From positions 62,001-126,000 of the forward strand of contig CALQLO010000004.1 of NCBI GenBank assembly GCA_943331445.1: a DNA stretch of 64,000 nt. Direction: 5' to 3'. The position numbers were made by a program, and so were the translations under genes. The stretch is from Akkermansia muciniphila (GTDB taxonomy: Bacteria; Verrucomicrobiota; Verrucomicrobiia; Opitutales; UBA953). Shown one piece after another: positions 8,264 to 59,302 of the stretch. A model generated the notes under the pieces. That model searched no databases and was not told where the DNA came from. It worked only from the letters and a program-made list of their open reading frames with translations. How positions within the stretch are numbered: the first letter of the stretch is position 1; every line of letters starts with the position of its first letter.

Positions 8264-10795
8264 TCAGAGTCGCACGCGCATCGTCCCGCGCGTGACGCCG
8301 AGCTGATTGAGGACCTTGAGGTCGTTCCAAAGGACCGTCGCATCGAGGTCGCCCTTGAGTAGCGCTTGATATTTTTCAAGGGTACGCGTCACGGTACTCG
8401 CATCCTCGTCGACGAATTCCACCCGGAACCGTCGGACCCCCAAGGAGAGGAGCTGAGTGACGTATTCCGCCCCGGTCTGGGCGCGTGAATTGAAGAGCGT
8501 GTTACGACAACCCGCATCGGCCTTGAGAATATGCTCAGCCCCAACCCGGTCGCGGAGCTTGACGCGATGCTTCTCACAGGGCCGACCACAATCCCGGTAA
8601 TCCTTACCCTTCGAGAGGAAGGCGCAGAATACGCAGTGCTCCATATGGAACATCGGCATGTGCTGGTGAATGGTCACCTCGAACCACTCTGGCGGCGCCG
8701 AACCGAAGAGCGCCGCGATCTGATCGGAGTTAAGATCGTAGGAGGCCGTGAGCCCTTCCAAGCGCTGGTGCTGCATCAGCCACTCAGCCGTGAGACCATT
8801 GGCGACATTGAGGGAGAAATCCCCGCGGAGGCGCTGGCCAGCGAAGGCCCGGAAGTCCTCATGATTGCGCACCAGATAACCATCGGCCTGACAGGAAAGA
8901 ACGATTTCACTGATGCGTTCCTCGCCCTGCTTATGAATACGTGGGCCCATCGCCCAGAACTCGAGTTTGCGGCCCGTCTGCTGTTCGAATTCGCGGACGC
9001 GAGCCACGGCAGCGCGGAATTTCTTCGGGTCTTCGAATTCGGCGTAAATCACGCGGGCGCCCCAGGCGAGCGCCGGCTCGAGCTGTTCGGGTTCACGGAT
9101 TACCGTGATAATCTCGGGGGCGCAATCGCGGCCAGAAGGCGCGGTGGCCACGACCTTGGTCGATGCTTCATCATAAGGCAGTAAAGCCCAGCCCGGCGGC
9201 ATGCTACGCAGTTCGGTGAGTCGATCGGAGAGTTCTCGTCGGAGGCGATTCAGCTCGCTCATCGGCACAATCAAGGGCCCGTCGAAATCCGCCGTGAGGT
9301 CGCCGATTTCATAACCGGTGTCACCGAGACGGCCAAGTTGCTCGCGCAGCAACTGTACTTCCAAAGGACGCTTCTCAGCGAGGGCACAGGGCATCGTGGA
9401 ATCGGCGGCCACGACATGCCCTTCGCCGTCATTGAATTCGACCCGGAGCGGCTGAGCCTGACGACCGATGACCCGGACATTAACCGCACGGCGATAGTTG
9501 GGCTTCTCCCGATCCCAGGAATCATGCAGCCGCTTGTCCAGCTCTTGATCCTTCGTCTTCCAAAGAATCGCCCCGGGCGCGACCAGCGACCAATCGACAT
9601 CTTCGCGGCCAAAGCGCACGAAAGTTAGCCCCGCCCGGGCAGGCTCGAGTCCGTGGACAAAGCCACCCTGCTCGCGTTCGGCTGGCTTGCCTTGGTCAAA
9701 GACCACGCCATCGCCCGGCTTGAGCGGCCCTTCGAGGCGCATCGTCACCCCATTCGTGCCGACATCGATGACCTTGCCCAGAAAAGCTCCACGCTTCTTA
9801 CCGAAGCGGGCGTGCACAAGCTGCTGGTTATCAATCCCGCGAAGCCAACCCGGATGGAGGCCACGGGAGAAAGTCATCTGCATCGCATAGTCCTCTTCCT
9901 GACGGACCTTACAGGCGGCGGCGTCGGCATCGGCACCCTTGGTCAAAGCCTCCCAGGCAACATCCACGGAACGGCGATAGGCCTTGGTGATGGCGGCCAC
10001 ATATTCAGGCGACTTCAGTCGCCCTTCGATCTTGAGCGAACGGATTCCCGCCCGGATTAGGTCGGGCACAACCTCGATGCCGGCGAGATCCTGTGGCGAG
10101 AGCAGGTAGGCGCGGTCACCCAGATTCTGAACCACGCCATCCACCACGAGTTCATAGGGCAGACGACAAGCCTGCGCGCATTCGCCGCGATTCGCCGAGC
10201 GACCCCCTAAGGATTCACTCGTTAAACACTGACCCGAATAAGCAACGCAGAGAGCGCCGTGCACAAAAACTTCCAGGTCAAGGGGCGCGCCCTTCGTCGC
10301 CTGCTCAGCCTGCAGCTTCTGCATCTCGGGTAGGGAAACTTCGCGCCCCAACACCGCCAGGGAGGCGCCAAGGTCACGGGCGTAATCAACGCCGGCGGCG
10401 CTCGTCACCGTCATCTGCGTGGAGGCGTGGATCGGGAAGTCTGGGGAGATCCGGCGAATGAGGCGGCAGATACCCGGATCCTGGACAATCGCAGCATCGA
10501 CGCCAGCTGCCACAATCGAGCGGAGGGTGCGGGCCGCCTCGGCGAGTTCATCTGGGAAAATGAGCGTGTTGAAGGTCACGTACCCCTTTACGCCACGGGC
10601 GTGGAGGTAGGCCATGAGTTTGGGTAAATCGGCCTCCTCGAAGTTCGTGGCCCGCACCCGGGCATTGAAACGGCCCACCCCAAAGAAGATTGCATCGGCC
10701 CCGTTCTCCACGGCCGCCCGGGCGCAATCCCACTCCCCCGCAGGGGCGAGCACCTCGGGTTTACGCAGAGTCGGATGAAGGGCGGTGGCTGACAC
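8264..10795 (-). CDS. Peptidase U32 family protein with DUF3656 (RlhA-like)
   Basis: An 843-residue member of the U32 family, whose studied members are tRNA/rRNA or ubiquinone hydroxylases needing an Fe-S cluster rather than proteases. The N-terminal barrel begins PEVLAPAGEWDCARAAVENG, and the family cysteine signature is present in VAYSGQCLTSES followed by NRGECAQACRLPY. A central DUF3656-type region follows, then a second TIM-barrel-like half with CVFCAFLS and CGRPCEKHR near the C-terminus. E. coli RlhA, which hydroxylates 23S rRNA C2501, has a similar layout but is shorter (about 650). The start is unsure: GTG 10795 places the core close to the N-terminus; a TTG at 10837 is also open. Its stop abuts the recD2 stop. 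Confidence 0.85.
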   Translation of the reverse strand: MSATALHPTLRKPEVLAPAGEWDCARAAVENGADAIFFGVGRFNARVRATNFEEADLPKLMAYLHARGVKGYVTFNTLIFPDELAEAARTLRSIVAAGVDAAIVQDPGICRLIRRISPDFPIHASTQMTVTSAAGVDYARDLGASLAVLGREVSLPEMQKLQAEQATKGAPLDLEVFVHGALCVAYSGQCLTSESLGGRSANRGECAQACRLPYELVVDGVVQNLGDRAYLLSPQDLAGIEVVPDLIRAGIRSLKIEGRLKSPEYVAAITKAYRRSVDVAWEALTKGADADAAACKVRQEEDYAMQMTFSRGLHPGWLRGIDNQQLVHARFGKKRGAFLGKVIDVGTNGVTMRLEGPLKPGDGVVFDQGKPAEREQGGFVHGLEPARAGLTFVRFGREDVDWSLVAPGAILWKTKDQELDKRLHDSWDREKPNYRRAVNVRVIGRQAQPLRVEFNDGEGHVVAADSTMPCALAEKRPLEVQLLREQLGRLGDTGYEIGDLTADFDGPLIVPMSELNRLRRELSDRLTELRSMPPGWALLPYDEASTKVVATAPSGRDCAPEIITVIREPEQLEPALAWGARVIYAEFEDPKKFRAAVARVREFEQQTGRKLEFWAMGPRIHKQGEERISEIVLSCQADGYLVRNHEDFRAFAGQRLRGDFSLNVANGLTAEWLMQHQRLEGLTASYDLNSDQIAALFGSAPPEWFEVTIHQHMPMFHMEHCVFCAFLSKGKDYRDCGRPCEKHRVKLRDRVGAEHILKADAGCRNTLFNSRAQTGAEYVTQLLSLGVRRFRVEFVDEDASTVTRTLEKYQALLKGDLDATVLWNDLKVLNQLGVTRGTMRVRL

Positions 10796-47495: not shown

Positions 47496-48188
47496 CTATT
47501 TGGCTTCGAGCGGGTTTTCCTTAAGCAATTCCGCGGCCGTGTAAGGCGACTTCCGATCCGCGAGGGCTTTGCGCACTTCCGCTACCTTCGTGTCCATAAT
47601 TGGCTCAGCCGTATTACCCCAAGCCTGACGGACATAAGTGGCAATGTTGGCGATTTGGGCGTTCGATAAGCCCGCCCCCACGTTGGGCATGACGCCGTTA
47701 TACTTAGCGCCCTTGACCTCAATCTCCCCGCCGAGACCAGCGAGGATGGCCTTGATCATACGCTCCCCATTGCCACCCACCCAGGGCGAACCAGCCAGAG
47801 GAGGAAACGCACCAGGCAAGCCGAGCCCCGTGGCCTGGTGGCAGACGGCGCAGTTAGTGATGAACAGTTTTTCGCCCTTGGCCGCATCCGGCTCGAAGAC
47901 GGCTGGACCACCCGAGGTCGCCAGCTTGGGGGCATCGAGGTCGAAGGCCCCAGCCGAGAACTGTCCGGAATTTCGGGTGAGATAGAGACCAGCCCAGAAA
48001 CCAAAACCGCAGAACAGGAAAACAATGAAGATCGGCGTCAGCGAGAAACCCTGAACAGGCTCCTCTTTGTCGCGGGCCAGCTGCGAGTGAATCTCCACCA
48101 AACGACCGTCGGAAAGGCCGTCGGAGCCGGTGCCAGACGGACCCCGGCGGTTACGGTTATTATCGGGATAACGATTAGAGTCGTTCAT
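47496..48188 (-). CDS. Membrane-anchored monoheme cytochrome c, last gene of the ACIII operon
   Basis: A 230-residue protein with a polar N-terminus, one membrane helix at about 51-70 (TPIFIVFLFCGFGFWAGLYL), and a periplasmic class I cytochrome domain. The heme site is CAVCH at 113-117 and a likely distal methionine lies in KYNGVMPNVG. In a cbb3 oxidase the third subunit, CcoP, would be diheme; here a single heme replaces it. Its domain resembles the cytochrome encoded between actF and the ccoN-like gene. It starts 4 bp after the ccoO-like gene and ends the operon. Confidence 0.88.
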   Translation of the reverse strand: MNDSNRYPDNNRNRRGPSGTGSDGLSDGRLVEIHSQLARDKEEPVQGFSLTPIFIVFLFCGFGFWAGLYLTRNSGQFSAGAFDLDAPKLATSGGPAVFEPDAAKGEKLFITNCAVCHQATGLGLPGAFPPLAGSPWVGGNGERMIKAILAGLGGEIEVKGAKYNGVMPNVGAGLSNAQIANIATYVRQAWGNTAEPIMDTKVAEVRKALADRKSPYTAAELLKENPLEAK

Positions 48189-48192
48189 GGGT

Positions 48193-48777
48193 TCACTTCT
48201 TTAATTTTGCTTCCGGGGAGGAGTAATCCTGCCGAAGGGAGAGGAGATAAGCAGCCAAGGCATCGGCACGCTCGGGGGCAAAGTCACCCTTGGCGTCAGC
48301 TTCATAGAGGAACGCAAATGCGTTGCCATGATGGATGGCGGCATGGACCGCGGCGAGAGACTTGGTGATTGTGGCAGCTTTCTCTGGCTCGGTCTGGGCA
48401 CCCTTAGGAGCAGGAGCGACCCGGGCACCATAGTTAGCGAGGTCCGGTCCAATGCGACGATCGCCTAGAAGGACATGAGACTGCAAGACGTAGTCGCGGG
48501 CGACCGAAGGGCGATCGCCATAACCGCGAGCGATATCACTACCCTGCCCGCTCGGACGAACCTGCTGGGTGTGGCAAGCGATACAGCCGAGAGAAACGTA
48601 GACATCACGACCTTGGACCGCGAGTCCCGGGACGGTTGCAGGATAGAGCGCGCCGCCTTCTTCCTCGGGGGCAGGGGCAAGATCGCCAAGCTGCACCTGC
48701 GAGCTAAGGAGCAGAGCTCCGAAGGGCAGCGCGACGGTCAGAAAGACGCCGGCAATGAGAAGTTTTGGGTTCGTCAT
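48193..48777 (-). CDS. CcoO/FixO-like membrane cytochrome c
   Basis: A 194-residue homologue of cbb3 oxidase subunit II. One N-terminal helix (about 7-26) anchors a periplasmic monoheme domain. The signature matches CcoO: QGRDVYVSLGCIACHTQQVR with heme C65/C68/H69, then RDYVLQSHVLLGDRRIGPDL. In CcoO this heme passes electrons from CcoP to the CcoN active site; here the CcoN-like partner has no visible metal ligands. The gene follows the ccoN-like gene by 11 bp and precedes the terminal cytochrome by 4 bp. Confidence 0.88.
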   Translation of the reverse strand: MTNPKLLIAGVFLTVALPFGALLLSSQVQLGDLAPAPEEEGGALYPATVPGLAVQGRDVYVSLGCIACHTQQVRPSGQGSDIARGYGDRPSVARDYVLQSHVLLGDRRIGPDLANYGARVAPAPKGAQTEPEKAATITKSLAAVHAAIHHGNAFAFLYEADAKGDFAPERADALAAYLLSLRQDYSSPEAKLKK

Positions 48778-48788
48778 GGGGGTGCCGA

Positions 48789-50216
48789 TTAGTCGTGGCG
48801 GCCTTCAGCAGCCGGGGCGGAGGATTTGAGGATCATGCCGAAAGCATTGAGCGCGAAGGCCACGTGGCCGACGAGCAAGAGAATGGCGAAGAGCAAGCTG
48901 GCGGAAGCGAGTCCCGCGGAAGCCGTCAGCACCTGGGCATAGGACACGGCGGGGTCGGCAAGTTGCTTACCAGACTGCCAGCCCACCGCCAAGGAAGCGG
49001 AGATGGAACCGAGTGCACCAATTGCGGTGGCCCAGAAGTGCAGGTGGACGAGTTTGGCCGAAGGCCAGAGTGAGCCAGTCAGTCGAGGCAGAATGAAGTA
49101 AGCCGCCCCGAAGATGACCATCGAAGCAAAGGCGTAAGTCAGGAGTTGTTCCTGACCTGCGCTGAAGGAGGTAAAACGCACCACGGCGTTGAAGCCACGG
49201 AACGAGAAAATGGCGTTCAGCACGCCATAGAGGGTGAAGGCCACTGCGCCGAAGGAGATGAAACGGAGCGTGGTGCTATTCCAAGCAAGCGACCAACCGC
49301 TTTGGGTGGACAGGGTCCCGTGGAAATTAATGGCCGTGATGATGACGGACACCAGGAACATGGCGGAACCGACTACGCCCACCGACTGCACCCAGACAGG
49401 AATCGGGCTACCGAGCAAACTGGCCGTCCCCGTCCATCCAGCGAACAGGAAGAAGGTCCAGAAGGCTACGGAAGCAAGGTAGTAGCCCGTGATATTTCGC
49501 CCCAGCACTTTCGGCAGGAAATAGTAAACCGCAGCCAGCGCGGAACCCCCGAGCCAGAGCAAGAGGAGGTTCTGGATAAACCAGCTATGGGCAATCGCTT
49601 GAACCACGCCCGAAGCCGGATTCCAGAGCACCAGCAACTGAGCCAGGAGATAGGCCAACGGGAAGACAAACGAAGCGCCGACCACAAACCACTGCGAGGC
49701 GAAGGAGTGACCCGTGGGGCGTTGCGCGTAAGCCACAATCGGCCAAAACGCCGAGAGGAGGAAGGCTACGGCGAGCACCGGGCCGACCGTGCGGGGCATT
49801 TCCAGGAGGCTGAAGCCGTTTAGGTCGCCGGCGAAAATGCTCAATGCGCCGTAAGTCAGCGCCACATTCCAAATAATCGCGCCCAAGCTGACGAGCCAAG
49901 CATTACGCAGTTCGAAACGACCAAGCTGGGAAGTCAGCCAGAGATTGATCGCGAAGAAGGCGTTGAACGCCCACCCGTAGATGAAGAGATTATGCTGAGC
50001 AGCGGAAACATGGCCGTAGGTAAAAACCTCCCCACTTACCCCACGTAGCAGCTGGGCCGAAACCAGACCAAGGACTGAAGCAACGAGCAGCCAGATTACC
50101 GCGGAGACGAAAAAGAGGAGGAAGGGCCCGCGGAGCTGAGCCTCGACGCGAGAGAGGCGCGAGTCACCGGGGGAAGGACGGCCCTGGGGGCGGCCGGAAC
50201 GATTATCCTGAGTCAT
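48789..50216 (-). CDS. CcoN-like heme-copper oxidase subunit I lacking the metal ligands
   Basis: A 475-residue membrane protein with about twelve helices, alignable to CcoN: HNLFIYGWAFNAFFAI, ALAAVYYFLPKVLGR, AAYFILPRLTG and AKLVHLHFWATAIG match the cbb3 fold. However, the ligands are replaced. Aligned without gaps to P. stutzeri CcoN: H207 becomes Q215, H257/H258 become A265/S266, H347 becomes Q355, H349 becomes Q357, cross-linked Y251 becomes A259, and H60 becomes Q74 (H75 is adjacent). The spacing from 207 to 349 (142) equals that from 215 to 357. So heme b, heme b3 and CuB should be absent. It is eighth in the ACIII operon, suggesting a scaffold role. Confidence 0.85.
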   Translation of the reverse strand: MTQDNRSGRPQGRPSPGDSRLSRVEAQLRGPFLLFFVSAVIWLLVASVLGLVSAQLLRGVSGEVFTYGHVSAAQHNLFIYGWAFNAFFAINLWLTSQLGRFELRNAWLVSLGAIIWNVALTYGALSIFAGDLNGFSLLEMPRTVGPVLAVAFLLSAFWPIVAYAQRPTGHSFASQWFVVGASFVFPLAYLLAQLLVLWNPASGVVQAIAHSWFIQNLLLLWLGGSALAAVYYFLPKVLGRNITGYYLASVAFWTFFLFAGWTGTASLLGSPIPVWVQSVGVVGSAMFLVSVIITAINFHGTLSTQSGWSLAWNSTTLRFISFGAVAFTLYGVLNAIFSFRGFNAVVRFTSFSAGQEQLLTYAFASMVIFGAAYFILPRLTGSLWPSAKLVHLHFWATAIGALGSISASLAVGWQSGKQLADPAVSYAQVLTASAGLASASLLFAILLLVGHVAFALNAFGMILKSSAPAAEGRHD

Positions 50217-50236: not shown

Positions 50237-50992
50237 TTATTTGAGTCCGAGTTCAGCGGTATTCCACATCGCGGTGCGCGCGGCGTTGGCGGCACGCACG
50301 GCCTTCACTTGGTCGACGGTGACAGGGTTCCCCTTGTTGCCGAAACTCTGGCGAACGTAGGTGAGGACGTCGGCGATATCCTGGTCACTCACGCCGGCAA
50401 CGGGAGGCATCATGCTGTTAAAGGTCATGCCTCCGACGGTGATCGGCCCCATGAGGCCATTCGTGATAAACTTAATGGGCAGCTCGGGGTTACCGACGAC
50501 AATCGGGGTCTCTGAGATCGAAGGGAACACGGGCGGCAGGCCCTTCCCCGTTGGCTGGTGACAAGCGATACAGGTGCGAGCGTAGACCGCGGCACCGCGC
50601 TTCATCTGCTCGGCGTCGGCGACGACGAACGGACCAGCCACGTAAGCGGCAGCCACGGCGGGAGCAGCCGGAGCACCGCCAGCTTGGATCTTGGCGATGA
50701 CCTGGGGGTCTTTAACAATCAGAGCTTGAGCATCCTTAAGGGGAATGCGGTAAGTGCCATCCGCGTTGCGGCTGGGTTCAGTCAGGAGAGCGAGTTCCTT
50801 CTTATTGGTTTCAGCCCGCAGATTCTGCTGGGCCTTGCGGCGGTCGGTCAGGGCATCCGGAGCGCGGCGGACGAGGGTGTAAGCGTAGCCGGTCGCAATC
50901 AGGGCAGCGGCGGCGAGGGAGATAGCGCCGAGCCAGGATGCGATCTGGCTGGGAATCAGCGGGCGGCGCCCGGAAGAGGGTTGATCACTCAT
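50237..50992 (-). CDS. Monoheme cytochrome c encoded after actF
   Basis: A 251-residue protein with a polar N-terminus, one membrane helix at about 18-38 (SWLGAISLAAAALIATGYAY), a linker with a TYRIPLKDAQALI segment often seen in such subunits, and a periplasmic cytochrome domain. The heme site is CIACH in ARTCIACHQPTG, with a candidate distal Met in FNSMMPPVAG. ATG 50992 overlaps the end of actF by 8 bp; the longer frame to 51112 lies inside actF and is rejected. It is a natural electron link between ACIII and the downstream oxidase-like subunits. Confidence 0.87.
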   Translation of the reverse strand: MSDQPSSGRRPLIPSQIASWLGAISLAAAALIATGYAYTLVRRAPDALTDRRKAQQNLRAETNKKELALLTEPSRNADGTYRIPLKDAQALIVKDPQVIAKIQAGGAPAAPAVAAAYVAGPFVVADAEQMKRGAAVYARTCIACHQPTGKGLPPVFPSISETPIVVGNPELPIKFITNGLMGPITVGGMTFNSMMPPVAGVSDQDIADVLTYVRQSFGNKGNPVTVDQVKAVRAANAARTAMWNTAELGLK

Positions 50993-52268
50993 GGTAGTTG
51001 ATGGACTCGAGGATGCGGGGGTCATGCACCGGGATGGTCTCGTTCTTAGAGGCACCACGGAGGAAGATGGCGATGACCACGGCGCCGAAGCCGATGATCG
51101 CGAGTAAATCAAGGAAGAGCGACGAAGTCAGGAAAGGCGCCACGGTGAACCCTTCGGGGAATTTAGTGAGGTCAGCCTGCGTCAACTGGCGCGGCACGGC
51201 GTTGAACCAGAGGTCAGCCAAGGCGCCGGCAACAATGATCCATGCCACCGTCAGCAGACGGCCCGGAACGATCTTAGTGCGATACGGAAGCAAGGACAGG
51301 AACGGCAGGAAGAAGAAGCCGAAGATCATGTACATCGACACGCCCCACCACTCGCTCTTGAGGCCGGTCACAGCATCAATTTCACGGATGTTATACCAGA
51401 AGGTTTCTTCCGGGATATTCGCCGTATAGATTAGGAAGTACTGGGAGAAACTGATGTAGGCCCAGAAGACCGTGAACGCCAGCATCAGGCAGCCAAGCAC
51501 ATGGCGGTGCGCTTGATTGAGCAATCCGTCGAGCCAGCCACCATTGGAAAGTTTGTAGGTCAGGATGACCGTGACCGCCAACGCAAGGCGGATGGAGAGA
51601 GCGAAGAACCACACCCCGTACATGGTGGAGAACCAGTGATACGACAGGGCCATCAAGCAGTCGAAGGCGAGCATGGTCAGCGTAATCGCGCTGAGGGGGA
51701 TGCCGACCGCCGAGACCGCGTGTAGGCGATGGGTATGCCCAGCGGTGCGGTCCGTGTCCTGGGCAAAGGACCAGCGACGCAGGAGAATCGCGAGGACGCC
51801 GAAGATCACCGCATAGAGGGCGATGCGGGCGAGGAAGAAATTCTCATTCAAGAACCAGCTCTTGGCCTGCAGGATGGGGTCAGCCCCAACCGTGTGCCCG
51901 CTGGGGAGCACGTGGCCGGCGTTCGTCCACTCCCAGAGCAGGTGACGAGAAGCCGGTATAAAGGCCAACGGGGCAATCCCGATGACAATCAGGATCGGCA
52001 ACGCGATGAGCATGTGCTCCCAGTTGCGACGGATGAGGGGAGCCCAGCCGGCATCAAAGACGCGGGTGATCATGGTCAACATCAGCATACCGATGAGGAT
52101 CGAAATCCAGAACATCGCGCCGACGAGCACGGACAGGCCTTGGCGATAATCATCGTGGCTAACGCCGTTAAAAGCGAAGCACCAGACGACAGCGAGGGCG
52201 ACGACGCCAGCGACCAGGAATTTCTTCCAGTGATCGGTCAGGGCGTGCGGCATGGAGGAGTCTCTCAT
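50985..52268 (-). CDS. actF: Alternative complex III subunit ActF (NrfD/PsrC-like)
   Basis: A 427-residue polytopic protein, paralogous to ActC, with about ten helices. It belongs to the NrfD/PsrC group; ActC and ActF form the membrane core of ACIII, which oxidises quinol and reduces a cytochrome or oxidase without cytochrome bc1. Conserved stretches include GHVLPSGHTV, FLNENFFLARIAL and YMIFGFFFLPFLSLLPYR. It starts 7 bp after actE (an inner ATG at 52253 is possible) and overlaps the next cytochrome gene by 8 bp. Confidence 0.9.
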   Translation of the reverse strand: MRDSSMPHALTDHWKKFLVAGVVALAVVWCFAFNGVSHDDYRQGLSVLVGAMFWISILIGMLMLTMITRVFDAGWAPLIRRNWEHMLIALPILIVIGIAPLAFIPASRHLLWEWTNAGHVLPSGHTVGADPILQAKSWFLNENFFLARIALYAVIFGVLAILLRRWSFAQDTDRTAGHTHRLHAVSAVGIPLSAITLTMLAFDCLMALSYHWFSTMYGVWFFALSIRLALAVTVILTYKLSNGGWLDGLLNQAHRHVLGCLMLAFTVFWAYISFSQYFLIYTANIPEETFWYNIREIDAVTGLKSEWWGVSMYMIFGFFFLPFLSLLPYRTKIVPGRLLTVAWIIVAGALADLWFNAVPRQLTQADLTKFPEGFTVAPFLTSSLFLDLLAIIGFGAVVIAIFLRGASKNETIPVHDPRILESINYHE

Positions 52269-52275
52269 GTTTGAA

Positions 52276-52992
52276 TTACTTGATTTGGGCCTTCAAGGCG
52301 GTGGGGACGAGATCAGCGGGGCAGTTCTGGGAGAGCTGCAACGCACGCACATAGGCGGCGACCGCCCAGCGTTCTTCCGGGGACAGCTTATCGCCGTAGC
52401 CCATCATGGTGTTCTTGCCGTTGGTGATGACGTCGAAAATCTGCCCGTTCGGGTACGCCCGGATGAGCGGGGTGTGGAGGTTGGCAATCGTCACAATGGC
52501 GACATCCCCTTCGAGGGCATTGCGCACCTTCATGATGCCGTTGCCATCACCGGCCGACCCGTGGCACACCGCACAATAAATCTGGAACTTTTTTTCGCCC
52601 AGCTCGAGGGTCTTGGCGTCGATGTTGAAACGCTCGAGTTCACCACCGGCGAGGACGGTCAGCGACTTCGCCGGGAAGCCAACAAGGAAGGCGCCCTTGG
52701 CGTCCTTACCCGTCACGAAGGAAGGGTTAAGGGACTCGGCACGGCGGAAGTCCGCCGCGAAGACCTTAGCTGGCTCGAGGGCGTTGCCCCGAGCGACCGT
52801 TCCATCCACGGGAGGGCGGGCGTCCCGTCCATCCTTGAAGAACTTGTTCTCACCTTGGGCTTTATACTTCGACTGGTAGTCCATGTCGTCGAAGACATAG
52901 ACGGGGGTGTCCTTGGACTTCTTACCTTGGAATCCGAGGAAGCTGATCATGGCAATGACAGCCACGGCGAGGAATGAGAGATAGCGGCTCAT
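52276..52992 (-). CDS. actE: Alternative complex III monoheme cytochrome ActE
   Basis: A 238-residue cytochrome with an N-terminal hydrophobic anchor (YLSFLAVAVIAMISFLGFQG) lacking a lipobox cysteine, followed by VYVFDDMDYQSKYKAQ, a segment typical of ActE. The heme site is CAVCH in QIYCAVCHGSAGDGNGIM and the distal Met is probably in GKNTMMGYGDKL. ActE is the last electron carrier of ACIII, passing electrons to the oxidase or a soluble carrier. Spacing to actD is 9 bp and to actF 7 bp. Confidence 0.9.
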   Translation of the reverse strand: MSRYLSFLAVAVIAMISFLGFQGKKSKDTPVYVFDDMDYQSKYKAQGENKFFKDGRDARPPVDGTVARGNALEPAKVFAADFRRAESLNPSFVTGKDAKGAFLVGFPAKSLTVLAGGELERFNIDAKTLELGEKKFQIYCAVCHGSAGDGNGIMKVRNALEGDVAIVTIANLHTPLIRAYPNGQIFDVITNGKNTMMGYGDKLSPEERWAVAAYVRALQLSQNCPADLVPTALKAQIK

Positions 52993-53001
52993 GGTTGCGG
53001 A

Positions 53002-53544
53002 TTAGTCGCGGATGACGGTGATTTCCTGGCCACCGAGGGACAGGAGGAAGTTGCGCGACTCATCGAGATGGAATTGCGGGTCCCGCGCCTCAAGCACGAT
53101 CATGAACGTGTCATCGGAGACCCGGCTGAACTGCGGGAGGTCGAATAACGGGTGATGGTGATGCGGCAGACGATTGAAGATGAACTGGCCGAAGAACGTG
53201 CCGAAGGCGGCGAACAGAATCGTGCATTCGTAAATCACCGGGAACGGGAAAATGACGCTCCAGTAAGGCTTCCCGCCGACAATCAGGGGGTAGTCATACG
53301 AATTCATATACCAGGTGAGCAGACAACCGGTGATGAAGCCGGTGATGCCGCCTAATAAGGTCAGGCGCGGGACGGGCGAGCGCGGTAGGCCCATGGCCTG
53401 ATCCATCCCGTGAATCGGGAAAGGGGTGTGGACGTCCCAGTTCTTCCAGCCCGCATCGCGGACTTGCTCCGCGGCGTGGAACACGTCGGAGACCTGGCGG
53501 AAAGTGCAGGCTACGCCGTGGATGCGTTCGTTGCGTTCGTTCAT
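53002..53544 (-). CDS. actD: Alternative complex III subunit ActD (DUF3341)
   Basis: A 180-residue membrane subunit with two helices (about 64-82 and 96-122). It matches DUF3341: GWKNWDVHTPFPIHGMDQAM, then SPVPRLTLLGG and PVIYECTILFAAFGTF. ActD packs beside ActC in ACIII structures and carries no cofactor. ATG 53544 is used; an in-frame TTG at 53568 would overlap actC. It follows actC by 20 bp. Confidence 0.92.
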   Translation of the reverse strand: MNERNERIHGVACTFRQVSDVFHAAEQVRDAGWKNWDVHTPFPIHGMDQAMGLPRSPVPRLTLLGGITGFITGCLLTWYMNSYDYPLIVGGKPYWSVIFPFPVIYECTILFAAFGTFFGQFIFNRLPHHHHPLFDLPQFSRVSDDTFMIVLEARDPQFHLDESRNFLLSLGGQEITVIRD

Positions 53545-53564
53545 GGTCGGATCAGCGGCGGGGA

Positions 53565-54974
53565 TCAATGGGCGTGAGGGTCGGCCTGCGGCGTCACCAT
53601 CTTCACCTCAGCCATAGGCAGCAGAGGCAAGAAGCGGACGAACAGGAGGAAGAGGACAGAGAAGAAGCCGAAGGTGCCGAAGAACGTGAAGATATCCACG
53701 ATCGTGGGGCTGTAGTAACCCCAGCTGGACGGCAGGTAGTCATTGGCGAGCGAGGTGATGGTAATCACGAAGCGTTCAAACCACATGCCGACGTTGACGA
53801 AGAGACAGATAATCCAGACCAAGGAGTGATTCTCGCGCACCTTCTTGAACCAGAAGAGCTGCGGGGTAATGACGTTACAGGACACCATGATCCAGTACGC
53901 CCAGGAGTATTGGCCGAAGGCGCGATTCACGAAGGCGAACTTCTCGAACGAATTACCCGAGTAAGCCGCGATGAAGAATTCCGTGGCGTAAGCGTAGCCG
54001 ACCATCGTGCCCGTGGCCAAGATGATCTTACACATGTTGTCGATGTGGTACTGATTGATGACGTCATGCAGGCGATAAATCGCCCGCAGCGGGAGCATCA
54101 GGGTCAACACCATCGCGAAGCCGGAGAAAATAGCCCCAGCGACGAAGTACGGCGGGAAGATGGTGGTGTGCCAGCCAGGGACGTTCGACACGGCGAAGTC
54201 AAACGAGACGATGGTGTGCACCGAGAGCACGAGAGGAGTGGAAAGGCCCGCGAGCAACAGGTAGGCCATTTCGAAGTTAGACCACTGGCGGTTGCCGCCA
54301 CGCCAGCCCATCGCGAGCAAGCTATAGAAGGCCTTGCGCCACCAGGTCGTGGCACGGTCGCGAATCGTACCGAGATCCGGAATCATGCCCATGTACCAGA
54401 ACAGCGTGGAGACCGTGAAGTAAGTCGAGACGGCGAAAACGTCCCACTCGAGCGGGGAGCGGAACTGCGGCCAGATGCCGTTCTGATTCGGGATCGGGAA
54501 GAGCCACCAAGCGAACCAAACGCGGCCGACGTGGAACAGCGGGAAGAGACCGGCGCAACAGACCGCGAAGATGGTCATGGCTTCAGCGGCCCGATTGATC
54601 GAGGTGCGCCACTTCTGACGCAGCAGGCAAAGAATCGCTGAAATCAGGGTGCCGGCGTGGCCGATGCCGACCCAGAACACGAAGTTAACAATCGCCCAAC
54701 CCCAACCCACGGGCGAACGCAGACCCCAAGCACCGGTACCCGTCGAGACCAGGTAGCCGAGGCCGACGAAGGTGAACGAGGCGATGAAAAGGGCGGCGGC
54801 GAACGTCACCTTCCACCACAGCGGGGTGGGCTCTTCGACGATGGCGCAAACCTTGTCGGTGATCCAGTGGAAGCCGCGGTTGTTAAGAATAAGCGGCGAG
54901 CGCGGGAGCTCGGCTGGTCGAACCCTGTCGAGGATTGCGGGGCGCTCCGGGGAGCTGTCGTGGGCGTTAGCCAT
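53565..54974 (-). CDS. actC: Alternative complex III subunit ActC (NrfD-like, quinol site)
   Basis: A 469-residue protein with ten expected helices, of the NrfD/PsrC family. ActC holds the quinol-oxidising site of ACIII next to the Fe-S domain of ActB. Conserved parts include [40 protein letters not shown] and [20 protein letters not shown]. The C-terminus ends in a short cytoplasmic/periplasmic polar tail ([11 protein letters not shown]). It follows actB by 22 bp. Confidence 0.94.
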
Positions 54975-54996: not shown

Positions 54997-57900
54997 TTAT
55001 TTGGCGTGCTTCTCAGCACCGTGAGATTCACCACCATGGGCAGCGGCGCCATGCGACGCACCGTGAGGGGCGGCGGAATGGCCTTCGCGTCCGGCCATCT
55101 CCTTGCGGGAGAGCGGCATGAGGATTGCTCCGGGCATGCGCAGGTTGAGATTACGCAACTTGGCCTGGTAGGTCGTGCGCGGGCGGGTGTTAAGGTAAGT
55201 CAGCGCACCGTAGGTACGCTTCGAAGCCTTCGCGAGGGAGACGCGCGACTTGGTATCGGTGATATCGCCGAACTCAATCGCTTCGGCGGGACAGGCCTGC
55301 TGACAAGCAACCTTGAGCTCGCCATCCTTGACATTGATCTCCTTGGAATCGCGGGCGCGGACCTTGGCGTGAATTTTGGCCTCCTGGATGCGCTGGACGC
55401 AATAGGTGCACTTTTCCATGACGCCGCGCATCCGCACGGAAACATCCGGGTTCTTCTGCATCTGCGGGAGATCGGCTGGATCCTTCGCCAACTTGGCAGG
55501 TCCGAGTGGGCCTTCGTAGTAGTGGCCGGCCTCGCGCTTATTGTAGTCGAGGAAGTTGAAGCGGCGGACCTTATACGGACAATTGTTGGCGCAATAGCGG
55601 GTGCCAATGCAACGGTTGTACGCCATGGTATTAAGACCCTGGTCGTCGTGCACGGTGGCGTTGGCGGGACAGACGGTCTCGCAAGGAGCCGTTTCGCAAT
55701 GCTGACAAGCGACACCCATGAAGGTGACCTGCGGGTCTTCGGGAATCGCCTTGCCGGCCTGATCGCGTCCGTCGAAGAAGTAGCGGTCGAGGCGAATCCA
55801 CTGCATGTTGCGTCCCTTGAGGACCTGATCGCGACCGACGACCGGGATATTATTTTCGGACTGGCAGGCGACGGCACAAGCGTTGCAGCCCGTGCAGGTA
55901 TTAAGGTCGATCGACATGCCCCACTGCTGCAGCGGGAGAAATTCGGATTCGTGACCTTTCCAGACGGCGACATTCGGAGCGGCCGCGTGGTTCGGGTGCT
56001 CGTAAGCGGAATTTCCCCGCGGGGTGGTAATGGCCTTGTTGGCCGGAGTCATGACGCCATCCTTGCCGTAGACGGCAGGGGCGTGACCATCGATCCCGAG
56101 TTTGGCGAAGTCCTCGTTGTCCTTCATGTTCTGGACACTACCTTCGCGGACGATGTCGCGACCTTCCATCGACCAGTGATCCTGCATGTTGCAAACGGCA
56201 ACGCGCGGCAGATCGGTGAGTTCGAGCTTCGCCCCCGAGCGATAGGCAGGCGAAGTGGAGGTGACGAAAGGATAGACGTTGAAACCGTTGCCCGTGACGC
56301 GACCAGCGAGGCGCTCATCGACGCGCGTGGCGACGCGACCAGCGACCTTGCGACCGAAGCCAAGCTGCAGACCCACGGTGTAATCCGCGAGCCCCGGCAT
56401 AATGAAGACCGGCCCCTGGATGGAGGTGCCGTCGATTGTAAGTTTCGCGATGCGGCACATCAGGCGACCATCCACCAACTGGTTGATGTTACGGTTGAGG
56501 GCGCCGATTTTATTGATGAGTAATTCACCCGGCTCGATGTCGAGTTTGGCGGCGTACTTCGGGCTGACGAGAATGACGTTTTCCCAAGCGGTCTTCGACA
56601 TGGGATCCGGAGCCTCAGCGAGCCAACCGTTGTTAGCGTAGGCACCGTCGCCCGAGTGAGTGCTCGGGACGATGCGAAGCTCGAGAGCGTCGAAAGAGAG
56701 CGCCGGAGCGGCCACTGACTTAATCTGTTCGACGCCGATGGCAGGCTTCGCCGCAGCAAAACCAGATTGCGTCAGGACGCCTTCGGCGAGCCAAGCGGCG
56801 AAGGCTTCATCGGAGGCGTCCTTGGCAAGCGAGTTGAAGGTGTCGCGGACGAGGCCGTGCGCATCCTTCTTCGAGCCAACAAAAGCGGCGAGCACATCGA
56901 GTTCGGTGAGCGTATCGAACAGCGGCGCGATCATCGGCTGGACGGGCACGTAAGTGCCGTCGACCGTGCGACCATCGGACCAGCTCTCGAGATAGTGTGA
57001 AGAAGCGAGGAACGTGCCACCCGCAGCCTTCACGGCAGCCGAGGAAGTCTCATCGAAGGAGGCGCCGTGGTAACCAAGACGGACGACGGTCTTGGCGGCC
57101 TTGAGGGCGGCTCCGAAGTTGGCGTCGGCCGGGGCGTCATAGGAGGGATTACCACCGAGGATGACAAGGGTGTCGGCCGGCTTGGCATGGAGGGCCGCAA
57201 TCGTCAGCGACGAAGGAGCCGGGGCGGCGACATAGCGAACCGCTGCACCGAGGGCTTGATTGGCGAGGAAGACCGCACGATGGGCATCGGCAGTGAGATG
57301 GTCGCCAGCGACCATGAGCGCGGCACCCTTGGCCTGGACGAGGTCGGCGATACATTCGGTCACCCACTTGGCGTCGACGTCGATACCGGAGACCTTGCCC
57401 TTAAGGGAGGATGCGGCGGCGCTGCCCGTCTGCTTAAGGACTTCAGCGGCGAAGAGAATGGCGAGGCCGGAGATGTGCGAGGATGAGGCGCGCAGGCGGT
57501 GATCAGCGGCGGCGCCAGTGAGCGTGAAGTTGGATTCGACGACGTAGAGGCGCGTCATCTGCTCAGCCTCCGTGGCACTGTCTGCCCGGCGGGCCTTGGA
57601 ATAGGAGCGAGTATCCTCGACGGTCGTGTCGCCGAGACCGAGGAAGTCGTGATCCAGACTTAGCACCCGGCGAGCCTTGGCGTAATCAGGGAGGGCACGG
57701 GCACCGAGGGTGCGCTCGGCGTTATTCTGAGCGACAGGCGTATATTCAATCCAGCGGGCATTTTTATAAATCGCCTTCAGTTCAGCAACGAGACGCGCAC
57801 GCGTCGGGGAAGTCGAAGGGCGAGCCAGGAAAGCTAGACCCGCACCAGCATTAGCCTTCGCGGAAGCGGCGAGACCATCAAGCAGTTCACGAACTTTAGC

Positions 57901-58395
57901 GACCGATAGCGTGGTGCCATTAGCACCTTCGGAGGTCTTAGCGCGATCAGGGTCATACATGTCGAGCACGCTAGCCTGGGCGTACTTCGAGGAGGCACCG
58001 CCGTTGGCCTGGTGGCTCGGGTTTCCTTCGATCTTGGTCGGGCGGTGTTGATGCGTCTCGACGAGAATCGGTTGGTTGGCGAATTCGCCCGGGAAAGAGG
58101 AAGCGTAGAAAGTCGCGACACCCGGAATCGTATTCTCGGGCTGCTTCGAGTAAGGCAGCGTGTGATTGCGGGGCTCGCGGCAGCCGGCGAGGCCGAGGCC
58201 AGCCAAGCCGAAGGAAGCGCCCATCAGCATCAGGAACTCACGGCGCTCGACCGTGGTAATAGCGGAGGCCCCATCGACGAACTCGCGTTCGGCACGGGTG
58301 CGGAACTCGGGAGACTTATTGCGCTCTTCGAGGCTGCGCCAATAGACGGTGTCGCCGGGCTGAGCCGCGGGATGTTCAAAGACTTTCTTGCTCAT
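54997..58395 (-). CDS. actB: Alternative complex III subunit ActB (molybdopterin-like plus Fe-S)
   Basis: An 1132-residue peripheral subunit, the fusion of a molybdopterin-oxidoreductase-like domain (no Mo site in this family) and an Fe-S domain. It has a Tat motif RREFL at 51-55 and a lipobox LAGC ending at C72, so it is exported folded and lipid-anchored. Between about 825 and 1040 the four cluster motifs appear: CTGCNACAVACQ, CQHCETAPCETVCP, CIGTRYCANNCPYKVRRF and CTYCVQR with CQQACP, giving three [4Fe-4S] and one [3Fe-4S] in known ACIII. A Gly/His-rich tail follows. It takes electrons from ActC-bound quinol to the hemes of ActA and ActE. Confidence 0.95.
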   Translation of the reverse strand: MSKKVFEHPAAQPGDTVYWRSLEERNKSPEFRTRAEREFVDGASAITTVERREFLMLMGASFGLAGLGLAGCREPRNHTLPYSKQPENTIPGVATFYASSFPGEFANQPILVETHQHRPTKIEGNPSHQANGGASSKYAQASVLDMYDPDRAKTSEGANGTTLSVAKVRELLDGLAASAKANAGAGLAFLARPSTSPTRARLVAELKAIYKNARWIEYTPVAQNNAERTLGARALPDYAKARRVLSLDHDFLGLGDTTVEDTRSYSKARRADSATEAEQMTRLYVVESNFTLTGAAADHRLRASSSHISGLAILFAAEVLKQTGSAAASSLKGKVSGIDVDAKWVTECIADLVQAKGAALMVAGDHLTADAHRAVFLANQALGAAVRYVAAPAPSSLTIAALHAKPADTLVILGGNPSYDAPADANFGAALKAAKTVVRLGYHGASFDETSSAAVKAAGGTFLASSHYLESWSDGRTVDGTYVPVQPMIAPLFDTLTELDVLAAFVGSKKDAHGLVRDTFNSLAKDASDEAFAAWLAEGVLTQSGFAAAKPAIGVEQIKSVAAPALSFDALELRIVPSTHSGDGAYANNGWLAEAPDPMSKTAWENVILVSPKYAAKLDIEPGELLINKIGALNRNINQLVDGRLMCRIAKLTIDGTSIQGPVFIMPGLADYTVGLQLGFGRKVAGRVATRVDERLAGRVTGNGFNVYPFVTSTSPAYRSGAKLELTDLPRVAVCNMQDHWSMEGRDIVREGSVQNMKDNEDFAKLGIDGHAPAVYGKDGVMTPANKAITTPRGNSAYEHPNHAAAPNVAVWKGHESEFLPLQQWGMSIDLNTCTGCNACAVACQSENNIPVVGRDQVLKGRNMQWIRLDRYFFDGRDQAGKAIPEDPQVTFMGVACQHCETAPCETVCPANATVHDDQGLNTMAYNRCIGTRYCANNCPYKVRRFNFLDYNKREAGHYYEGPLGPAKLAKDPADLPQMQKNPDVSVRMRGVMEKCTYCVQRIQEAKIHAKVRARDSKEINVKDGELKVACQQACPAEAIEFGDITDTKSRVSLAKASKRTYGALTYLNTRPRTTYQAKLRNLNLRMPGAILMPLSRKEMAGREGHSAAPHGASHGAAAHGGESHGAEKHAK

Positions 58396-58413: not shown

Positions 58414-59115
58414 TTAGCGGTGGCAGCCCGAGCAGCTCTGGGGCGGATTGACCTTCCAGTTGTGGACGAACTTCGTGCCGTCCGCGGTCTGCGCAGCGGG
58501 CGAAGCGGCCTTGTAGGCGAGATCTGTGATCTTATCCAAAGGCCGGAGGGCCTGTTCAGGATTACGGTGACAATCCAAACAGAAAGACATATTGAGCGAC
58601 TTCTGTTGGCCGACGACGGCCTGCTGGTCGATGCGACCATGGCACTCGACGCAGCTCACGCCGCGGTTCACGTGGACGGAGTGATTGAAGTAAACGTAGT
58701 CAGGCACCTTGTGCACTTTGACCCAGCGAATCGCGTCGCCGGTGAGGAAACTATTCTTGACGAGAGCCAGCGCCGGGCTGTCGGGCTTAACCTGGCTGTG
58801 ACAGTTCCAGCAGGTATTGGTCGTGGGCACGTTGGAGTGACCAGACTTCTCGACGAAATTATGGCAGTAGCGGCAATCCAGACCCAGGGCGGAATCCGGG
58901 CCCGCATGGAAAGAGTGATCGAAGGCCACCGGCTGATCCGGCGTGTATCCGACGTTCAGATACTTGTTGGTCGCATACTCGTTGACCGCTGCCGTGACGA
59001 CGACGCCCGTGATCAACAGGCAGACGATAATCTGGAAGGGGGCGGCGTTAACGCTTCGGGAGAAGAAGTTCCCACGGGGAGCCGGGCGGTTGAGATATTC
59101 GAGGAGCTTGCGCAT
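58414..59115 (-). CDS. actA: Alternative complex III pentaheme cytochrome ActA
   Basis: A 233-residue multiheme cytochrome with a single N-terminal membrane helix (about 27-46). Five CxxCH sites occur in order: CRYCH, CWNCH, CVECH, CLDCH and CSGCH. A pentaheme ActA is standard for ACIII, as in Rhodothermus and Flavobacterium. Spaced histidines (FDHSFH, YFNHSVH) may be distal ligands. ATG 59115 is chosen since the hydrophobic helix and the usual short basic start (MRKLLEYLNRP) follow; the frame is open to 59187. First gene of the operon; 18 bp precede actB. Confidence 0.94.
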   Translation of the reverse strand: MRKLLEYLNRPAPRGNFFSRSVNAAPFQIIVCLLITGVVVTAAVNEYATNKYLNVGYTPDQPVAFDHSFHAGPDSALGLDCRYCHNFVEKSGHSNVPTTNTCWNCHSQVKPDSPALALVKNSFLTGDAIRWVKVHKVPDYVYFNHSVHVNRGVSCVECHGRIDQQAVVGQQKSLNMSFCLDCHRNPEQALRPLDKITDLAYKAASPAAQTADGTKFVHNWKVNPPQSCSGCHR

Positions 59116-59302
59116 CGCGTTCAGACGAAGGGATTGACGGTTTTTTGACCGAAGAAGCACGAAAGGCAGACCCCCTTCGCAATCCAAAATTAAGGGGTTT
59201 TAGTCGCTTTTCAGGGGTTGGCTGTGAGCCTAGCGGCTATAATCATGTGAATCAGATGAGGGTAACTAATTTAAACATATCATAATCAACATGTTATATT
59301 AT

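Follow-up and report, generated by a model that had tools for sequence, protein, structure and literature searches.

In the window, by which we mean the whole stretch of 64,000 nucleotides that was analysed, a run of ten genes on the minus strand begins with actA and carries ncoN as its eighth gene (Table 1). The names ncoN and ncoO are working names coined in this analysis. The open reading frame of ncoN, for which the earlier note had mentioned no strand, proved to be real at the coordinates listed. Named relatives place the window genus at UBA953, a freshwater group of Opitutales. The sequence of actC was 70-94% identical across Opitutales, and the actC of one lake MAG (L093) was identical to that of the window; actF matched nothing in Pfam or NCBIfam. 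The cytochrome c gene interposed between actF and ncoN was found in the window genus and a few others, and, because its TTG start overlaps actF, an inner ATG near position 50992 is probably its true start. The terminal cytochrome c gene adjoined ncoO in nearly all loci, and the order actABCDEF-(cyc)-ncoN-ncoO-cyc was nearly invariant through the class Verrucomicrobiae.

Table 1. Genes of the ncoN operon in the window, listed from actA onward.
Gene	Product	Coordinates	Strand	Remarks
actA	ACIII multiheme cytochrome c	58414..59187	-	Pfam Cytochrome_C7 9.2e-13; NCBIfam QrcA-like
actB	ACIII molybdopterin-oxidoreductase-like/Fe-S subunit	54997..58395	-	Pfam Fer4_7; NCBIfam MoCo_extend_TAT above cut-off
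actC	ACIII NrfD-type quinol-binding subunit	53565..54974	-	Pfam NrfD 2.4e-23
actD	ACIII subunit	53002..53568	-	Pfam ActD 1.6e-60
actE	ACIII monoheme cytochrome c	52276..52992	-	Pfam Cytochrome_CBB3 8.7e-14
actF	ACIII membrane subunit	50985..52268	-	named from position and conservation in loci
	anchored monoheme cytochrome c, between actF and ncoN	50237..51112	-	Pfam Cytochrom_C 2.5e-10
ncoN	predicted cofactor-free CcoN-like (heme-copper oxidase subunit I) protein	48789..50216	-	475 aa, 12 long helices
ncoO	CcoO/FixO-like membrane-anchored monoheme cytochrome c	48193..48777	-	CIACH; Pfam FixO E=2.9e-12
	anchored monoheme cytochrome c, operon end	47496..48188	-	CAVCH; Pfam Cytochrom_C 5.7e-12

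Family and predicted fold of NcoN

NcoN matched Pfam COX1 with an E value of 9.5e-32, and the closest solved structure by sequence was P. stutzeri CcoN (3mk7, E=1.6e-13). When a profile was built from relatives of NcoN, the top five structures were all CcoN, with E values of 2e-60 or better. The AlphaFold2 model of NcoN, made from an alignment of 52 relatives, had 12 long helices (pLDDT 92.4, pTM 0.92), and a Foldseek search with this model ranked CcoN structures first (TM 0.86-0.89), with 3mk7 at TM 0.89 and 2.3 A. The model of one intact member, made from 12 sequences, was weaker (pLDDT 72). We predict with high confidence that NcoN retains the 12-helix heme-copper oxidase fold and is nearest to CcoN, and the kinship with CcoN proposed beforehand was borne out by the best solved match, the profile search and Foldseek alike. 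Against the curated ccoN model, NcoN scored 82 bits, below the cut-off of 583, and an intact ACIII-linked relative also fell under this cut-off (229 bits).

As in P. stutzeri, a gene for a CcoO-like monoheme cytochrome comes next. Unlike a cbb3 operon, the ncoN operon lacks the di-heme CcoP, its third protein being monoheme, and the genes sit in an ACIII operon. A second likeness is to ActF, which provides a precedent for a cofactor-free paralog within ACIII (PMC5928083): ActF is, and NcoN would be, a cofactor-free membrane protein of the ACIII operon or complex, but ActF, a paralog of the quinol-site-bearing ActC, has the NrfD/PsrC fold whereas NcoN has that of the heme-copper oxidases.

Ligand sites in NcoN and its relatives

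In the alignment to 3mk7, the P. stutzeri ligands H60, H207, H257, H258, H345 and H347 correspond to Q74, Q215, A265, S266, Q355 and Q357 of NcoN, and the cross-linked active-site tyrosine Y251 to A259. The predicted absence from NcoN of all six heme and copper ligands and of the active-site tyrosine was confirmed by this alignment. Every NcoN residue that the earlier note had named was correct, but the last two P. stutzeri ligands, which it gave as H347 and H349, are H345 and H347 when counted along the 3mk7 chain. The alignment, said there to be free of gaps from the CuB region to the last motif, contains a 2-residue insertion in NcoN near residues 303-305; because of this insertion, an argument from equal distances (207-349 and 215-357) fails, and the site assignment still stands on the flanking motifs.

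Matches to ncoN were present in 51 of 57 relatives, and when 384 genomes of the phylum were searched, those with close matches spanned the class. The 58 ACIII-linked NcoN rows in our tree formed one clade distinct from canonical CcoN (support 100, starred). Of the ACIII-linked loci that we scored, 141 in number and including a few organisms counted twice (L047/L143, L036/L111), 27 had an intact ncoN (one cut before H60) and 114 were ligandless. The latter kept none (64 loci), one (43), two (5) or three (2) of the seven site residues; Y251 was gone from every one of them, none retained the complete CuB histidine triad, and the ligands were lost nearly as a set. The intact genes, found in Cerasicoccus frondis, C. 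maritimus and Coraliomargarita sp. SDUM461004 among others, occupy the same slot beside the same neighbours and code for proteins about 35-38% identical to NcoN that keep the six ligands and the tyrosine, whereas the NcoN of the window keeps none. Ligandless genes were found in Cephaloticoccus, Pelagicoccus and MAGs named Lacunisphaera and Opitutus. The genome that is probably, as we take it, that of Opitutus terrae PB90-1 (G153) has a ligandless ACIII-linked ncoN and a canonical ccoN (618 bits) elsewhere.

Some loci depart from these two states. One ligandless locus, L053 (G067, 8673-10172), was the sole one with both low-spin heme b histidines (H60, H347), its CuB/heme b3 site being gone, and may by its sequence be an intermediate or code for an electron carrier with heme b alone. 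Partial forms occur in L121 (13240-14649) and L147 (8884-10284), which by alignment have the His257-His258 pair and His345 and lack the other ligands and the tyrosine. Outside the ACIII operon, three Opitutaceae-family loci (L064, L065, L066) hold a third CcoN-like clade with all ligands, in open frames of 550-634 aa.

The exchange of histidine for glutamine in the window had been read as a directed loss. Across the ligandless loci, glutamine was common at four sites only (46, 47, 54 and 63 of 114), few loci had it at the CuB pair (9 and 4 of 114), and other clades had Ala, Ser, Arg, His, Leu or Phe at the lost sites. The conservation of glutamine at all positions, which had been proposed as a check, was thus not found, and the family as a whole gives no support to a directed replacement. 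A change from histidine to glutamine takes a single base. Because of this, and because the replacements vary among clades, the loss looks like a repeated and relaxed one.

Other sites of the oxidase core changed as well. R57 and E122, which we take to be the residues that hold the heme propionates in CcoN, were present in 26 of 26 intact loci, whereas in the ligandless loci R57 was mostly replaced by Gln, Ala, Glu or Asp and E122 remained in 21 of 114. E323 of cbb3 CcoN, where the window genus has Leu, was missing from the intact relatives as well. The residues S236, S240 and Y317, invariant in the intact members, were kept in 34, 25 and 39 of the 114 ligandless loci, which showed no conserved set of acidic residues or histidines in their stead; Y223 and Y224 were kept in about 90%.

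These counts bear on whether NcoN might still bind a cofactor through other ligands (e.g. His210, His391, His393 or His451) and be an altered heme protein, which we regard as improbable. All four histidines are conserved in the window genus, and L053 retains H60 and H347. However, H393 (of the HFW motif) and H451 are just as invariant in the intact members, which rely on the known ligands; H393, a non-ligand there, was the only candidate histidine to reach 50% conservation among the ligandless loci. H210 and H391 are restricted to 39% and 37% of these loci and would, by the 12-helix topology, lie toward opposite membrane faces, and the propionate residues R57 and E122 are lost too. Of the substitutes suggested beforehand, H69, H75, H210, H299 and H391 were each less than 50% conserved in the ligandless set, and conservation gives them no support as alternative ligands.

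Ligandless ncoN is under purifying selection, with pairwise dN/dS values of 0.07-0.19 (0.035-0.074 in two intact pairs). That it might be a decaying pseudogene or an assembly artefact is scarcely credible: the ligandless genes do diverge fast, with a mean column identity of 40% in a mixed set vs 72% for the intact genes, but their frames are open in more than 100 loci, the predicted fold is confident and the dN/dS test rules out a pseudogene. Chance or assembly error is ruled out by the many independent assemblies in which the 114 of 141 homologous loci were found ligandless. A protein that would be non-catalytic and not decaying, as had been proposed for this ACIII operon, is consistent with the missing ligands, the dN/dS values and the c-type cytochromes retained alongside.

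In the ligandless loci, the c-type heme motif was present in 113 of 113 NcoO proteins and 108 of 109 terminal cytochromes. The probable axial methionine of NcoO was Met in all 27 intact loci and in 61 of 113 ligandless ones, being replaced in the others by His (19), Lys (8), Cys (8), Arg (5) and further residues; NcoO of the window lacks the axial-Met motif MPPF of its intact relatives. This turnover supports, at the level of sequence, a changed job for the NcoO heme c; given that about half of the ligandless loci have lost the methionine, NcoO may have a modified or waning part as a relay.

Number of ligand losses

The tree of ActA+B+C+E required 9 changes in the state of ncoN, at least 6 of them on starred branches, and a larger tree of ActB+C required 10, at least 8 of them on starred branches; if loss is irreversible, the latter requires about 17 losses. 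Forcing the ligandless rows into one clade was rejected on the ACIII core genes (p-AU 1.7e-97). The tree of actF+ncoO+cyc needed 9 changes and that of ncoO alone 7. In contrast, the ncoN tree alone separates intact from ligandless genes with two changes. When 68 columns that are conserved in the intact genes and lost in the ligandless ones were removed, ncoN accepted two of three family groupings (p 0.54 and 0.32), and the third, of Opitutaceae, remained rejected (p 1.8e-6).

The two changes on the ncoN tree and the persistent rejection of the Opitutaceae grouping would be expected if the ligands had been lost once, long ago, and the ligandless gene had then spread into the operons of relatives by horizontal transfer or gene conversion. 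We consider such a history doubtful. The core trees stand against it, requiring about 10 changes, of which no fewer than 6-8 fall on supported branches; because the flanking genes themselves need 9 changes, ncoN alone would have to have moved repeatedly between fixed neighbours, and the replacement residues vary widely from clade to clade. A single loss was rejected on the ACIII core trees, the conflict with the ncoN tree being partly reconciled by dropping the 68 site-linked columns. The ligands appear instead to have been lost repeatedly from working ancestors, with convergent relaxation at the same sites, and some exchange of ncoN among Opitutaceae is possible.

Oxygen reduction and the proposed role of NcoN

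The window genome (2.4 Mb, 94.8% complete) contained two PF00115 hits, one of them ligandless. The one other heme-copper oxidase is A-type, its genes ctaC (with CXXCH), ctaD and ctaE lying one after another, and a search of this genome for a bd oxidase found none. All the ligandless genomes checked had an A-type oxidase, with the exception of G005 (87% complete); in G395 the oxidase was confirmed from fragments. In many lineages, including Methylacidiphilum, the A-type oxidase genes directly follow the ncoN module in one operon. Because most genomes with an intact ncoN also carry an A-type oxidase, this oxidase does not tell the two states apart. In one genome that is 99% complete (G046), the intact ncoN was the only oxidase found, neither a second heme-copper oxidase nor a bd oxidase being present, and therefore the ancestor of ncoN was probably a working oxidase. 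The retention of Y251 in the intact form favours a putative reduction of O2 over that of NO.

We consider it likely that NcoN is a cofactor-free membrane scaffold that holds c cytochromes between ACIII and the A-type (caa3) oxidase. A former C-type-like heme-copper O2-reductase subunit would have been built into the ACIII operon of Verrucomicrobiae, and the window lineage and several others would have independently shed both b-heme ligands, the CuB ligands and the tyrosine while keeping the fold and the operon slot. NcoN would then stand beside ACIII and hold the CcoO-like cytochrome along with the anchored cytochrome or cytochromes c next to it, so that electrons could pass from the ActA and ActE hemes through the NcoN-held cytochromes to the heme c of the A-type (caa3) oxidase, which would carry out the O2 chemistry. 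We infer in this way a contact of NcoN with ACIII, the absence of heme and copper from NcoN and its role as scaffold and relay; a docking of cytochromes onto ACIII through NcoN is plausible. In the ACIII-aa3 and ACIII-caa3 supercomplexes of F. johnsoniae and R. marinus, c hemes link ACIII directly to an A-type oxidase, and, unlike in the ncoN operon, no CcoN/CcoO-like module in between has been described.

The gene pair itself has been described. A cbb3-type oxidase is listed for the verrucomicrobial methanotrophs (PMC8498564, PMC10205796) and placed beside ACIII in Methylacidiphilum SolV, Kam1 and V4 and in Opitutaceae (PMC6688271, PMC8498564, citing Refojo et al. 2010); the Kam1 genome paper tied the co-located enzyme to a high O2 affinity (PMC6688271), and a review stated that a C-type oxidase occurs with ACIII only in verrucomicrobial methanotrophs and Opitutaceae (PMC8498564). 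This is the same module as that of ncoN, in Methylacidiphilum followed by the A-type oxidase in one operon, and, whereas it was described as a working, high-affinity oxidase, it is ligandless in the three Methylacidiphilum strains and in G153. In Kam1 (G204), SolV (G096), V4 (G430) and two congeneric genomes, the seven sites read S, E, S, S, H, F and V; as judged from these residues, the published cbb3 oxidase beside ACIII in the three strains is a ligandless NcoN. The claim that no such subunit had been described holds among open papers for the ligandless state, and fails for the gene pair, known as cbb3-type beside ACIII (PMC6688271, PMC8498564). In our search of open papers, we found no described ligandless heme-copper subunit I and none that noted missing ligands in the ACIII-linked cbb3-type proteins.

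In SolV, no second ccoN-like gene was found above cross-matches, the remaining COX1 hits being two A-type, two B-type-like and one NorB-like (the last by motif). Since the only CcoN homolog found in SolV lacks the ligand set, the inference of a high-affinity cbb3 oxidase needs revision, and the O2 affinity of SolV must then come from A- or B-type enzymes. Gene annotation labels ligandless NcoN proteins as cbb3 oxidases, and PF00115 hits alone overcount oxidases. For the class as a whole, we find it fairly probable that an ACIII-bound catalytic subunit was repeatedly turned into a cofactor-free, structural one with its c-type heme partners kept as a link to the A-type oxidase, that NcoN is the first heme-copper subunit I without any redox centre, and that the high-affinity cbb3 oxidase of the methanotrophs does not exist as an oxidase. 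The two states form a natural experiment, in which one respiratory machine occurs with and without its catalytic centre in close and partly cultured bacteria, and the structural role of the oxidase in the ACIII supercomplex is therefore directly testable.

Single loci varied further in the operon. In the Kam1 locus (L174, 6823-8270), an in-frame stop (TAA) splits actC. ACIII operons in which ncoN was not found occur in L178 (G063) and L182 (G075), and the module was therefore apparently also lost outright. In a Methylacidiphilum genome (G126; L176, 8846-15094), a cluster for nitrous-oxide reductase, its NosZ scoring 957 bits, lies within the ACIII operon, in the interval between actF and ncoN, and fits the published one of M. 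caldifontis IT6 (PMC11102522); its placement may be another sign that this slot is an electron outlet of ACIII.
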